Assembly: GCF_011386835.1 (NCBI RefSeq)
Contig: NC_088804.1
Span: 36,691,549-36,755,548 of the forward strand
Length of the DNA: 64,000 bases
Direction: 5' to 3'
Source: Chrysemys picta bellii
Lineage: Eukaryota > Chordata > Testudines > Emydidae
The position numbers were made by a program, and so were the translations under genes. Below are positions 11,566-60,513 of this stretch, piece by piece. The notes under the pieces are model-generated. The model did no database searches. It was given only the letters and a program-made list of their open reading frames with translations, and was not told the DNA's origin. Within the stretch, counting starts at the first letter, position 1, and the number at the start of each line of letters is the position of its first letter.

Positions 11566-11603
11566 GGGTTTGATTGGACTTCAGTGTTATAAGAAAGTAA
11601 TTA

Positions 11604-11707
11604 GAGTGACAAAGTGGGTGACGTAATATCTTTTATTGGACCAATTTCTGCTGGTGAAAGAGACACGCTTTCGAGCTCCACAGAGCTCTTCTTCAGGTGA
11701 AAGTATA
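11604..11707 (-). mobile_element. Penelope-like terminal fragment (family B) with hammerhead-like core
   Basis: On the minus strand the fragment reads CTGAAGA (11696-11690), a perfect GAGCTC-TGTG-GAGCTC stem-loop, GAAA (11672-11669), and then the 'CACCAGCAGAAATTGG' and 'ATAAAAGATATTAC' segments. Copies with the same order lie at 26449-26580 and 52990-53058. The CTGANGA / stem II / GAAA arrangement matches the catalytic core of a hammerhead ribozyme. Stem III is weak. The hAT element at 11716 was inserted right beside it, separated only by the target duplication. Confidence 0.6.
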
Positions 11708-11715
11708 CTCTACAT

Positions 11716-12053
11716 CAGTGGTTCCCAAACTTGTTCTGTCACTTGTGCAGGGAAAGCCTCTGGCGGGCCGGGTCGGGCCGGTTTGTTTACCTGCCGCCTC
11801 CACAGGTTTGGCCAATTGCAGCTCCCAGTGGCCGCGGTTCACTGCTCCAGGCCAATGGGAGCTGCTGGAAGCAGCGGCCAATATGTCCCTTGGCCCGCAC
11901 CGCTTTCAGCAGCTCCCATTGGCCTGGAGCAGCGAACTGCAGCCACGGGGAGCCGTGATTGGCTGAACCTGCGGATGTGGCAGGTAAACAAACTGGCCTG
12001 GCCCGCCAGGGGCTTTCCCTGCACAAGCGACGGAACAAGTTTGGGAACCACTG
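11716..12053. mobile_element. hAT-type non-autonomous element, palindromic
   Basis: The element starts CAGTGGTTCCCAAACTTGTT and ends with its inverted repeat (…GTTTGGGAACCACTG). It is flanked by a perfect 8-bp duplication, CTCTACAT, at 11708-11715 and 12054-12061, as expected for hAT. The interior is GC-rich and itself roughly palindromic, with the GCTCCCATTGGCC and GTTTACCTGCC segments appearing on both arms. Frames of up to 143 codons inside it are by-products of the GC-rich inverted repeat. No transposase is encoded, so mobilisation would be in trans. Confidence 0.93.
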
Positions 12054-17507: not shown

Positions 17508-19208
17508 CTATTCAGTCTCTACTCGGCACTTCTTGGCTTGTCTCTTGTATTCATTAAATGGAGCATCTCTTGTCACTGTCCAGCAATAGTCTGCAAGCAT
17601 TGATGGGCTCCATTTGCCCTGATAGCGTTTCTCCATTGTTGCAATGTCCTGGTGAAATCGCTCGCCGTGCTCGTCGCTCACTGCTCCGCAGTTCAGTGGA
17701 AAAAAATCTAGATGAGCGTGCAAAAAATGTATCTTTAGTGACATGTTGCAACCAAGGCTTTTGTATGCCTTGAGAAGGTTTTCCACCAACAACCTGTAGT
17801 TGTCTGCCTTGTTGTTTCCGAGAAAATTTATTGCCACTAACTGGAAGGCTTTCCATGCCGTCTTTTCCTTGCCACGCAGTGCATGATCAAATGCATCATT
17901 TTGAAGAAGTTCACGAATCTGAGGACCAGCAAAGACACCTTCCTTTATCTTAGCTTCACTTAACCTTGGAAATTTTCCACGGAGGTACTTGAAAGCTGCT
18001 TGTGTTTTGTCAATGGCCTTGACAAAGTTCTTCATCAGACCCAGCTCGATGTGTAAGGGTGGTAAGAAAATCTTCCTTGATTCAACAAGTGGTGGATGCT
18101 GAACACTTTTCCTCCCAGGCTCCAATGACTGTCGGAATGGCCAATCTTTCTTGATGTAGTGGGAATCTCTTGCACAACTATCCCATTCGCAGAGAAAACA
18201 GCAGTACTTTGTGTATCCAGTCTGCAGACCAAGCAAGAGAGCAACAACCTTCAAATCGCCACAAAGCTGCCACTGATGTTGGTCATAGTTTATGCACCTC
18301 AAAAGTTGTTTCATGTTGTCATAGGTTTCCTTCATATGGACTGCATGACCAACTGGAATTGATGGCAAAACATTGCCATTATGCAGTAAAACTGCTTTAA
18401 GACTCGTCTTCGATGAATCAATGAACAGTCTCCACTCATCTGGATTGTGAACGATGTTGAGGGCTGCTATCACACCATCGATGTTGTTGCAGGCTACAAG
18501 ATCATCTTCCATGAAGAAGAATGGGACAAGATCCTTTTGACGGTCACGGAACATGGAAACCCTAACATCACCTGCCAGGAGATTCCACTGCTGTAGTCTG
18601 GAGACCTACAGCTCTGCCTTACTCTTGGGTAGTTCCAAATCCCTGACAAGGTCATTCAGTTCACCTTGTGTTATGAGGTGTGGTTCAGAGGAGGAGGATG
18701 GGAGAAAATGTGGGTCCTGTAACATTGATGGTTCAGGACCAGAAGTTTCATCCTCTTCCTCTTCCTCGTCTGACTTAAGTGAGAATGATTCTGGTGCATC
18801 AGGAATGGGCAGTCCTTCTCCGTGTGGTACTGGGCGTATAGCTGATGGAATGTTTGGATAATGCACAGTCCACTTTTTCTTCTTTGACACACCTTTCCCA
18901 ACTGGAGGCACCATGCAGAAGTAACAATTGCTGGTATGATCTGTTGGCTCTCTCCAAATCATTGGCACTGCAAAAGGCATAGATTTCCTTTTCCTGTTCA
19001 ACCACTGGCAAAGATTTGTTGCATAAGTGTTGCAGCATATGTGTGGGGCCCACCTCTTGTCCTGATCTCCAATTTTGCAGCCAAAATAAAGGTGATAGGC
19101 TTTCTTAACCATAGTGGTTATACTGCGCTTTTGTGATGCAAAAGTCACTTCACCACAAACATAGCAGAAGTTATCTGCACTGTTCACACAAGTATGAGGT
19201 ATCTCTGC
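17508..19208 (-). pseudogene. Orphan transposon-like protein frame, intronless, one in-frame TAG
   Basis: One minus-strand frame is open from 19208 to the stop at 17510-17508, broken only by TAG at 18608-18606. That gives about 565 sense codons. The 17 codons between the TAG and the first downstream ATG (18554) stay open, so the two visible frames are one gene. There is no upstream ATG: the apparent start at 19187 is GTG, and TGA lies at 19211-19209. Counting from 19187, the N-terminal part has Cys8-x2-Cys11, Cys51-Cys52 and Cys88-x2-Cys91 (a likely zinc-binding module), a KKKK basic patch, then an acidic SDEEEEED run. The C-terminal part has a YTKYCCFLCEWDS block and a SDEHGERFHQD block. I recall homologous uncharacterised proteins in arthropods and other animals, and repeated copies in turtles, which suggests a mobile element. 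The function is unknown. Tyr55 sits where a second C-x2-C would need Cys, which is a possible decay mutation. Confidence 0.8.
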
Positions 19209-26404: not shown

Positions 26405-26810
26405 TATAAGGCCATTAGCCCATCTAGTCTGCAGACTCTGTGATTTCCTTCCCCAGACTTGAAGAAGAGCTCTGTGCAGCTCAAAAGTTTGTACCTTCCA
26501 CCAACAGAAGTTGGTCTGATAAAGGTATTACCTCACCTACTTTGTCTCTCACCTGGGACCAGCACAGCTACAACAACACTGCACACTCCTGCATAACACA
26601 AGCCATAGAATTTCAGACAGTTTTTCTTGTATTGAACCCAATAACTTGTGCTTGGCTACAGCAAATCTTCCAGAAAGGCATCTACTCTTGATTTCAAGGC
26701 TTCAAGTGATGGAGAATCCACCACTTCCCTTGATAGTGGGAACCAGTGGTTACTTAACCTTGCTGTTAAAAAATTGCCATTCATTCTCATTATGTTTATC
26801 CATGTATTTT
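26405..26810 (-). mobile_element. CR1 LINE 3' end, interrupted by a Penelope-like insertion
   Basis: Minus-strand CR1 3' UTR sequence: 'CATCTAGTCTG' lies before the insertion, and 'CTCCTGCATAACACAAGCCA', 'TCTTCCAGAAAGGCATC' and 'GGAGAATCCACCACTTCCCT' after it. The insertion occupies about 26439-26578 and is flanked by a near-perfect 10-bp duplication. Confidence 0.8.
26449..26580 (+). mobile_element. Penelope-like terminal fragment (family B) inside CR1
   Basis: Contains 'TTGAAGAAGAGCTCTGTGCA', 'CACCAACAGAAGTTGG', 'TAAAGGTATTACCTCACC' and 'CTGGGACCAGCACAGCTAC' in the order seen in the other family B copies. Flanks CTGCAGACTC (26429-26438) and CTGCACACTC (26579-26588) look like a 10-bp target duplication with one mismatch. 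Counting from the duplication, the insert is 26439-26578. The hammerhead-like core is damaged here: GAAA has become AAAA, and one base is inserted before the TGAAGA box. Confidence 0.65.
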
Positions 26811-28190: not shown

Positions 28191-28678
28191 ATTGAGAATG
28201 TATGCCACAAATATTTCTGGAAATGTTTACAAAACAACACTTGCGTTTCATCTGCCATGCCTTACAGACACCAACTGACAGTTTATGCCAAATATTTTAT
28301 ATGGAAGACAACATAAGGCATGAATCATTTAAAGCTGATTTCTGGATTTAAACACTAAAATTCAACATAATTTAAAATGAGCATCAGAGCAAGATTTAGA
28401 TTCCACCTGCTTGGAAGTGAAATACAATGATTTGTAACTTCTAACTATAATGTAGCTAAAGATTCTAGTTCAAAATGTACACAATTAAGGTCATTATGAA
28501 TTAACGACAGTAGAAGCCTGTAGGAATGATAAATTGTGGTTTAATATGAGTAATAATTTGTGCAGATGTACATCAAAGCACTTAGGAACACATGTTATAG
28601 TTCTTTGGGGTGAATTAAAAAGATTCTGGACAATGTACCTGATAGAAATGATGATATTATTGCACTCTATTATTATGT

Positions 28679-28768
28679 CTGACGAAGTGGGTAGTCATCC
28701 ATGAAAGCCTATGTTCCAATACATCTGTTAGTCTATAAGATGCCACAGGACTCTTTGTTGCTTTCTAA
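28679..28768 (+). mobile_element. Penelope-like terminal fragment (family A) with hammerhead core
   Basis: Starts CTGACGA (28679-28685), then GTGGGT-loop-ATCCAT as stem II, then GAAA (28703-28706), GC-CTAT-GT as a 2-bp stem III, and the cleavage triplet UUC (C at 28716). It is followed by the family signature 'CAATACATCTGTTAGTC' and 'AAGATGCCACAGGAC'. This is the full minimal hammerhead arrangement known from Penelope-like retroelements. Target duplication is uncertain (CTATTATTATGT and CTAATATTACTG are only partly alike). Confidence 0.7.
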
Positions 28769-33359: not shown

Positions 33360-33552
33360 CAGGGGTCGGCAACCTTTGGCACGCGGCTCAGCCCGCACCA
33401 CTTCCCACCGCCCCCATTGGCCTGGAGTGGCAAACCGCGACCAGTGGGAGCCACGATCTCCCGAACCTGCGGACGCAGCAGGTAAACAAACCAGCCCGGC
33501 CCGCCAGGGTGCTTACTCTGGTAAGCCGTGTGCCAAAGGTTGCCGACCCCAG
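33360..33552. mobile_element. hAT-type non-autonomous element (CAGGGGTCGGC family), copy 2
   Basis: Starts CAGGGGTCGGCAACCTTTGG and ends CCAAAGGTTGCCGACCCCAG. It is flanked by a perfect 8-bp duplication GCCTAGTG (33352-33359 and 33553-33560). The interior shares GCCCCCATTGGCCTGGAG and 'GGTAAACAAACCAG' motifs with the 11716 family, showing the two families are related internally. Non-coding. Confidence 0.95.
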
Positions 33553-38554: not shown

Positions 38555-39595
38555 CTAACCGCCGATGCTTTGAAAGATCTACCTATATGTGTATATACTC
38601 AAAGTATGGACACACCGTTAAATGACACATGCAAATGTCCGTTTAAATGCAACATAGTCCATATCCTGAGAAGTTAAATCAGGCATGGGGGGTGTTAATT
38701 ATTAACATACTTTTTATAATATGGACAAATTACATCCAGTGATGTTTTGATTGGAGGATTAATTGTAGAAAATCTCTACATATGAAGAGGCTGCTTGTCA
38801 GAATTTAATATATTTTAGCAATGGATACACATTGATACACAGTGAATGGCTTTTGATTATGGCTTCCATGCCCTGAACTTAGAACAGACTTGGTCACAGA
38901 GGGTAAATAAAGAAGGTCCCCTTGGTTATGTAAGAACTAGAGAGAAGTATCTCGCTTAAAGCTGGATTATAAAATCCTAGGCAAAGTACAGTATTAGCCA
39001 ATAGCATCACATCTGGAGTCAGAAATCAGGTGGGGGAAGGGGGGAGCGTTCATTAAAAATAGATCTGCAGAACAGCTAAGATGATTATTGGACCTGATTT
39101 GCAAGATTAGAGACATGCAACATTCTGTCGGGCCGTTTTTTTCTCCTGTGGCTGCACAAAAGGCCTTTATCACAGGGGGCAGGGAATGCTCAGACTTCTC
39201 CAGGGCTCAGACAGAAATTGATTGTGTGGCCAGAGTTCACTGAAGGAGAGAGAAAAGCAGTAATTGGGGTGTGGTGATGAAAGGGATGTTCCGTCTAGCT
39301 TACTCTTGTCTGAATTTATGGCTTCTTTTCCTATATCCTTCTCTTTTGTGTAGTGATGTCTAAGCCATAGCTGGGCACAGAACTGATCCCTCAGAGATTT
39401 ATGTATCTCACACAGTGCAGATGTAAATTATTAATATGATCTTTCTACCTTATGCTCTGAGCCTCTTCCTCTTTGTATCTAGAGATTTACAAAGTTTATT
39501 GAAATTACAGAAGTAATAGAAAGATTGTAGGTCTTTTTACCTGCCAGGGACAGTAACGGAGGAAAGAGCTACATATTATCCAAAAAAACCCCAAA
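38555..39595. other. Unassigned non-coding DNA
   Basis: No gene or repeat family is recognised. Confidence 0.4.
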
Positions 39596-39599
39596 AAAA

Positions 39600-39692
39600 C
39601 AAAAACTCAGAGGAGTCTTTGTGGCACCTTAGAGACTAACAAATGTATTTCTTACAGCTGACACAGACTAACACGGTTACCATGCTGAAACA
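39600..39692 (+). mobile_element. Penelope-like terminal fragment (family A), internally deleted
   Basis: 'CAGAGGAGTCTTTGTGGCAC', 'CTTAGAGACTAACAAATG', then 'GACACAGACTAACACGGTTACC' directly. The hammerhead part between these blocks is missing. Preceded by AAAAAACC runs. Confidence 0.6.
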
Positions 39693-51330: not shown

Positions 51331-51477
51331 TTCAAAGTGGTAGCTGTGTTAGTCTGTATCAGCAAAAACAACGAGGAGTCCTTGTGGCACCTTAGAGACT
51401 AACAAATTTATTTGGGCATAAGCTTTTGTGGGCTAAATTTGTTAGTCTCTAAGGTGCCGCAAGGACTCCTCGTTGTT
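51331..51477. mobile_element. Foldback Penelope-like insertion (family A) with 12-bp duplication
   Basis: The insert carries 'GGTAGCTGTGTTAGTCTG' and then two inverted 44-bp arms (51367-51410 and 51434-51477, one mismatch) around a 23-nt spacer. Flanks TCTGGGAATTGT at 51319-51330 and 51478-51489 form an exact 12-bp target duplication. The arms hold the family signature 'GTGGCACCTTAGAGACTAAC'. On the minus strand the spacer holds a degraded hammerhead end (GAAA changed to AAAA, stem III GC-TTAT-GC kept); the CTGANGA side is lost. Confidence 0.8.
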
Positions 51478-52985: not shown

Positions 52986-52989
52986 TGTA

Positions 52990-53058
52990 AGCTTGTCTCT
53001 TTCACCAACAGAACTTGGTCTAATAAAAGATATTACCTCACCCACCGTGTCTTTCTAA
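52990..53058 (+). mobile_element. Penelope-like terminal fragment (family B)
   Basis: 'AAGCTTGTCTCTTTCACCAA', 'CAGAACTTGGTCTAATAAAA' and 'GATATTACCTCACCCACC' match the other family B copies. The hammerhead-like core lies upstream in the full sequence and is missing here. Confidence 0.6.
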
Positions 53059-56440: not shown

Positions 56441-56555
56441 AACAGGAGTACTTGTGGCACCTTAGAGACTAACAAATTTATTAGAGCATAAACTTTCGTG
56501 GATGCATCCGAAGAAGTGGGCTGTAGTCCACGAAAGCTTATGCTCTAATAAATTA
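56441..56555. mobile_element. Foldback Penelope-like insertion (family A) with hammerhead core
   Basis: 'CAGGAGTACTTGTGGCACCT' and 'TAGAGACTAACAAATTTATT' lead into inverted arms 56475-56502 and 56527-56554 (28 bp, one mismatch). The plus strand at 56508-56545 reads CCGAAGA, GTGGGC-TGTA-GTCCAC as stem II, GAAA (56532-56535), GC-TTAT-GC as stem III, and TC. This is a hammerhead core with one change (CTGA to CCGA). Flanks ATTAGAACA and ATTAGAGCA may be a partial target duplication. Confidence 0.75.
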
Positions 56556-60234: not shown

Positions 60235-60246
60235 CGAGTTCACATA

Positions 60247-60465
60247 AAAAGCAACAGAGGGTCCAGTGGCACCTTTAAGACTAACAGAAGTATTGGGAGC
60301 ATAAGCTTTCGTGGGTAAGAACCTCACTTCTTCAGATGCAAGAAGAAGTGAGGTTCTTACCCACGAAAGCTTATGCTCCCAATACTTCTGTTAGTCTTAA
60401 AGGTGCCACAGGACCCTCTGTTGCTTTTTACAGATTCAGACTAACACAGCTACCCCTCTGATACT
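60247..60465. mobile_element. Foldback Penelope-like insertion (family A), 87-bp arms, intact hammerhead core
   Basis: Inverted arms 60246-60332 and 60343-60429 match in 86 of 87 positions around a 10-nt spacer; a single-arm tail CAGATTCAGACTAACACAGC and 'TACCCCTCTGATAC' follows. Flanks CGAGTTCACATA at 60235-60246 and 60466-60477 are an exact 12-bp duplication. On the minus strand the left arm and spacer read CTGAAGA (60335-60329), an imperfect stem II, GAAA (60310-60307), GC-TTAT-GC as stem III, and UC with the cleaved C at 60297: a complete hammerhead core. No coding capacity. Confidence 0.85.
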
Positions 60466-60513
60466 CGAGTTCACATAGTCATCTTGTAGACTCAGGTCCT
60501 GGTCCTGTTCAGG

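Follow-up and report, generated by a model that had tools for sequence, protein, structure and literature searches.

A 219-bp foldback insertion in Chrysemys picta bellii, best read as a truncated Penelope-like element inserted head-to-head

An inverted insertion between two 12-bp direct repeats

Which kind of element leaves two facing copies of itself at one genomic site, and by which route? This question is raised by an insert of 219 bp at positions 60247-60465 of a 64,000-nt stretch of the Chrysemys picta bellii genome (NC_088804.1, positions 36,691,549 to 36,755,548, forward strand; hereafter the window), which carries exact copies of CGAGTTCACATA on both flanks, as seen in the letters and in a repeat search. 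The best reading is a truncated Penelope-like element (PLE), namely a fragment of the pseudo-long terminal repeat (pLTR) of such an element inserted head-to-head. As such, the insert is an ordinary dead retroelement fragment, a new copy of a known kind of element. Its parts, with the methods by which they were assigned, are as follows.

60235..60246, plus strand: target-site duplication, left copy (CGAGTTCACATA; repeat search, random-locus control)
60247..60333, minus strand: left arm, read as the PLE pLTR end in antisense, with its outer end at the proposed proximal (tail-less) start site (repeats, BLAST, end mapping)
60297..60339, minus strand: putative minimal hammerhead with stem I GCAU/AUGC, CUGAAGA plus an extra A, a stem II with a bulged A, and the predicted cut GAAAGCUU^AUGC (alignment, folding, covariation, covariance model)
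60334..60341, no strand: single-copy spacer at the inversion junction (repeat search)
60343..60429, plus strand: right arm, the same region in sense, without the hammerhead CTGA at the junction (letters, repeats, BLAST)
60430..60465, plus strand: AC-rich tail, at the right end only, ending 118 nt past the start of stem II (end mapping, tail motif)
60389..60446, plus strand: possible stem-loop of tail AGACTAAC with body GTTAGTCT (repeats, folding, pair check)
60466..60477, plus strand: target-site duplication, right copy (repeat search, random-locus control)

A first-pass annotation of this DNA had described two nearly identical arms and an exact 12-bp flanking duplication, and both descriptions were confirmed. 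By BLAST, the arms at 60246-60332 and 60343-60429 are identical at 86 of 87 positions, and the repeat search lengthened the pair to 60245-60333/60342-60430 (89 nt each, 8 nt between). The two flanking copies of CGAGTTCACATA (60235-60246 and 60466-60477, 12 bp each) are identical, and among 400 random loci in the window only 1 had a repeat as good or better. Folded as RNA, the insert reached -168.8 kcal/mol compared to a shuffle mean of -52.6 (sd 4.7). The letters CTGA are missing from the right arm at the inversion junction. The further proposal that the insertion is recent is a weak one, being based on a single mismatch among 87 positions.

Relatives in the window and the position of their outer ends

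The family was searched for within the window by BLAST with the insert, followed by a profile built from the BLAST matches. The profile gave nine matches at E 7e-6 or better and two more at E >0.5. The resulting family comprises five loci with nine arms, which we name by their kb position, with L and R for left and right arm: the foldbacks 60k, 51k, 39k and 56k, and the single sense copy 28k. All four relatives were placed by BLAST and end mapping.

51331..51477, minus strand: second foldback, in mirror orientation, with the tail on the left and none on the right
39594..39691, no strand: third foldback, with antisense body on the left (reference positions 39-87) and sense tail on the right (83-122)
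56441..56550, no strand: fourth foldback, with its left end at reference position 80 and its right end internal, at 42
28678..28763, plus strand: lone copy in sense orientation, whose end lies close to the proximal site and whose hammerhead has CTGACGA

The 51k foldback has its own exact 12-bp duplication (51319-51330/51478-51489), matched in quality at 0 of 400 random loci. Its overlapping arms agree at 43 of 44 positions and leave a single-copy spacer of about 25 nt, while the two parts of 39k adjoin and scarcely overlap. None of the five copies, all heavily truncated, has a tandem or partial-tandem (direct pLTR) layout.

In order to compare the outer ends, we numbered 60R (right arm plus tail) from 1 to 123 and used it as reference. 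The tail-less outer ends lie at 88 (60L; 87 when the base shared with the duplication is dropped), 84 (51R), 87 (39L) and 80 (56L), and the outer end of 28k lies at 94 as aligned, or at 84 after hand-trimming of its proposed duplication, which is imperfect. The tail ends lie at 123 (60R), 122 (51L) and 122 (39R). Thus, the outer ends gather at two points about 35 nt apart. Leaving out the two ends of the query, six of seven fall within 80-94 or 119-123, for which a binomial estimate assuming uniform ends gives about 1e-4, with windows that were placed around the query's two ends and chosen after seeing the data. In all three tailed foldbacks the tail is one-sided, on the right in 60k and 39k and on the left in 51k. 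The tail motif GACYARCACRGYTAC has four matches in the window and none in 100 shuffles, with a pattern derived from those same copies.

An optional tail of 30-40 bp beyond a fixed end, as in PLEs, was found with one exception, 56R. Inverted pLTRs with a short target duplication, likewise a PLE trait, were found with exact 12-bp duplications at two foldbacks and non-significant ones at two. The claim of a partial, inverted Penelope-type insertion with target duplication is supported by these results. In addition, body GTTAGTCT can pair with tail AGACTAAC. A check of four copies (60R, 51L, 39k with the stem spanning both arms, and a copy of a second family at 26k; stem halves picked by eye) found all eight pairs in place, one of them being compensated in the 26k copy. 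Folding of the whole unit was not significantly more stable than that of its shuffles (z -1.08).

A minimal hammerhead motif without stem III

The first-pass annotation had also proposed a hammerhead ribozyme in the left arm, read on the minus strand. The letters are indeed present in order (CTGAAGA, a stem, GAAA, GC-TTAT-GC and an NUH triplet), but an extra A separates CUGANGA from stem II in five of five aligned copies, stem II of 60k has a bulged A, and the pattern CTGANGA-N(8-22)-GAAA occurs 4 times in the window compared to 3.46 expected from shuffles. Since the motif is no rarer than chance, the bare letters prove nothing alone. The proposed 2-bp stem III around TTAT with a CUC triplet was rejected: this fold reached -6.9 kcal/mol, compared to -9.7 for one with stem I GCAU/AUGC and stem II, and the best fold of the motif has no GC/GC stem III. 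Comparison with the PAc element of Anolis carolinensis (see below) also speaks against it, and PLE hammerheads, in the passages cited here, usually lack stem III (PMC7761336, PMC6155905, PMC11167929). From the -9.7 kcal/mol fold, the cut would likely fall after GCUU.

No Rfam model matched anywhere in the window at gathering score. With the threshold relaxed to E 10, there were 10 rows for the 60k stretch, all under gathering scores and none of them a hammerhead, eight being microRNA models that fit the long hairpin; the motif alone and the 11k stretch gave none, and the 56k stretch gave four weak rows without a hammerhead. Taken to the letter, this is the outcome that the first-pass annotation had named as counting against its hammerhead; in our own reading, minimal PLE motifs escape the Rfam models.

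Three further loci, 11601-11698 (minus), 26457-26587 (plus) and 52989-53058 (plus), make up a second, diverged family that has a hammerhead-like core. Its stem II has 6 bp (GAGCTC/GAGCTC in the 11k copy), and the tail of its 26k copy has GACYARCACRGYTAC in common with the first family. Covariation was assessed on five copies, two of them from this second family. The CUGANGA...GAAA core is intact in 60L, 28k and 11k, with one change in 56R and two in 26k. For stems I and II together, 97.5% of 40 pair cells are paired and the covariation score is 0.825, neither of which was reached by 500 shuffles; slid alignments left 22.5-47.5% of the cells paired. Double changes occur at five of eight pairs, a count matched by 86 of 500 shuffles, and the independent events are few because changes are common to members within a family. 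The length of stem I differs between the families: 2 bp in both copies of the second, and 4 bp in all three of the first, although some of the 28k stem may be flanking sequence. A covariance model from the three first-family copies found the second-family stretch 11660-11698 (32.5 bits, E 9e-7, a rough value) and the right arm at 60338-60378, followed by three further rows at E 0.5 to 1.3; the decayed 26k copy was not among its matches at E up to 10. These results point to a stem II kept by paired changes and, by its modelled structure, to a minimal hammerhead in the pLTR. The hammerhead claim therefore holds in corrected form, by covariation and by the match of the held-out family, with no Rfam match.

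We also considered hammerhead cleavage as the process that set the 5' ends, and rejected it, as none of the nine arms starts at the predicted cut (reference position 31, 60R being the reference itself). Six of the nine arms have their inner (5') ends within the hammerhead or immediately before it (28678, 51432, 56501, 56511, 60332-60343); stalling of reverse transcriptase at the folded motif may explain them.

Comparison with known Penelope-like elements

The enzyme of PAc (Poseidon) from A. carolinensis cuts and extends both strands, with a target preference for ATT; reverse transcription starts at two internal sites, the interval between which is the 30-40 bp tail; the hammerhead cut lies 26 bp past the start codon; and the ribozyme is not needed for insertion in vitro (all PMC11167929). 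The insert is similar in its spacing, with 25 nt from stem II to the hammerhead cut (26 in PAc) and 118 nt from stem II to the start site (111-118 in PAc), as well as in its tail of 30-40 bp. By analogy, the interval that separates the two end points in the turtle copies resembles the PLE tail. In contrast to PAc, whose enzyme is active in vitro, 60k is a remnant in which no open reading frame (ORF) was seen, and the main text of PMC11167929 says nothing about inverted copies.

Inverted pLTRs and short 3' extensions are already known for PLEs, as a passage of PMC8969392 states. Pen2a_Av, a Penelope of Adineta vaga, shares the inverted layout and the optional one-sided tail, as far as the cited part of PMC3846280 goes, but has a long ORF and direct pLTRs, whereas the turtle locus has pLTR fragments only and a 12-bp duplication. 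The copies in the window resemble the minimal type I hammerheads of PLEs (PMC7761336, PMC7229834, PMC6155905, cited passages) in having a core with stems I and II and no stem III, and may differ in the extra A after CUGANGA. According to a passage of PMC7761336, PLE hammerheads may cut as dimers; the best dimer fold predicted here, in which AAGCUU of one copy pairs with that of the other and stem I is not formed, would accord with this. Finally, a statement in PMC5753468 that Penelope was unreported in amniotes is contradicted by the Anolis PLE (PMC11167929) and by a table entry, Penelope-2_CPB (PMC9004415).

Origin of the inverted arms

We favour, with a probability of about two in three, a short, 5'-truncated PLE produced by target-primed reverse transcription (TPRT) at a staggered cut, with both target strands serving as primers. 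The enzyme would cut these strands at points about 12 nt from each other. One strand would prime cDNA with its 3' end at the distal RNA start site (the tail end), and its partner would do so at the proximal site, which lies about 35 nt upstream. Both cDNAs would have the same polarity and stop at different points, and their joining with little shared sequence would leave a foldback with a single-copy spacer. As only one strand would prime at the tail site, and its partner at the tail-less one, a foldback would carry at most one tail. The hammerhead would be a passenger from the pLTR, because none of the nine arms starts at the predicted cut and the 60k RNA would be locked in a long hairpin; this role fits the ribozyme-independent insertion seen for Anolis. 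The two-strand cut, the two-site priming and the joining of cDNAs are what we infer from end positions in few copies.

Several results weigh against this route. The comparison draws on only five copies of the family, every one from a single window, and the end of 56R at position 42 matches neither end site. The proposed duplications at 39k, 56k and 28k do not exceed random expectation, being equalled at 191, 72 and 81 of 400 random loci, respectively. No reverse transcriptase or GIY-YIG endonuclease frame, which PLEs combine in one ORF, was seen in the window, as a Pfam search (E 0.01) of 10 of its 11 ORFs of at least 130 aa gave no match of any kind. Both 12-bp targets have 7 of 12 A+T and are thus not strikingly AT-rich, compared to the ATT preference in Anolis.

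In the twin priming known from LINE-1, the second target strand can anneal to any part of the same RNA, so that the inversion point is random. The adjoining geometry of 39k and the internal end of 56R agree with such a course; a near-fixed tail-less outer end in four of four foldbacks (reference positions 80-88) does not, and the overlapping arms of 60k and 51k are not readily given by one template, so that we regard twin priming as unlikely.

Self-priming on an antisense template, in which the inverted arm arises when the first cDNA snaps back and serves as its own template, was favoured for rotifer Pen2a_Av by authors who left the question open (PMC3846280, Discussion), and it would suit the near-perfect arms and 8-nt spacer of 60k. 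One arm being copied from the other, the two should overlap, and the merely abutting parts of 39k argue against this. The second outer end at the tail-less site is left unexplained, and 51k has its single-copy spacer of about 25 nt. We rank self-priming below twin priming and consider it improbable.

A foldback DNA transposon, miniature inverted-repeat transposable element or short interspersed element unrelated to Penelope would share the inverted repeat, the flanking duplication and the lack of a coding frame, yet is highly improbable given outer ends made unlike by the one-sided tail, the single-arm copy 28k, the paired changes that keep hammerhead stem II and an ARAGORN scan of the window that detected no tRNA gene. 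Foldbacks are a known type of assembly or amplification artefact, but such an origin, or two independent insertions, is hardly credible next to exact 12-bp duplications right at the ends of two foldbacks in opposite orientations, and to differently shaped foldbacks within one window.

TPRT from both strands, as favoured above, connects two facts that have been explained separately: the inverted Penelope copies with one-sided tails (PMC3846280, 2013, cited part) and the extension of both strands by the Anolis enzyme, which uses two internal start sites (PMC11167929, 2024). Whether PLE foldbacks are a direct genomic record of two-strand, two-site TPRT, with both start sites used within one integration event, is in our judgement evenly balanced. 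Should the end positions be borne out across the genome, the number of inverted copies would be a count of two-strand integration events, and the two-strand route would be favoured over self-priming. No statement of this reading of inverted PLE copies was found among the listed open-licence titles and abstracts or in the cited passages. On the whole, the first-pass interpretation is partly supported.

Further searches and observations

Two short patterns matched 1 and 69 stretches of viral_contigs, and when the insert was compared with these 70 loci by BLAST, the sole match spanned 21 bp and was put down to chance. Searching genome_contigs and viral_contigs with a longer pattern gave zero matches. 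These nulls weigh little because the collections are not reptile genomes.

At 17508-19208 (minus) an open frame of 365 aa adjoins another of 200 aa, with one stop between them; neither has a Pfam match (E 0.01), and the 365-aa frame has no PDB match. The same BLAST also revealed another dispersed repeat, which is not part of the foldback finding, at 11716-11795 (minus), 11979-12053 (plus) and 33472-33503 (plus).
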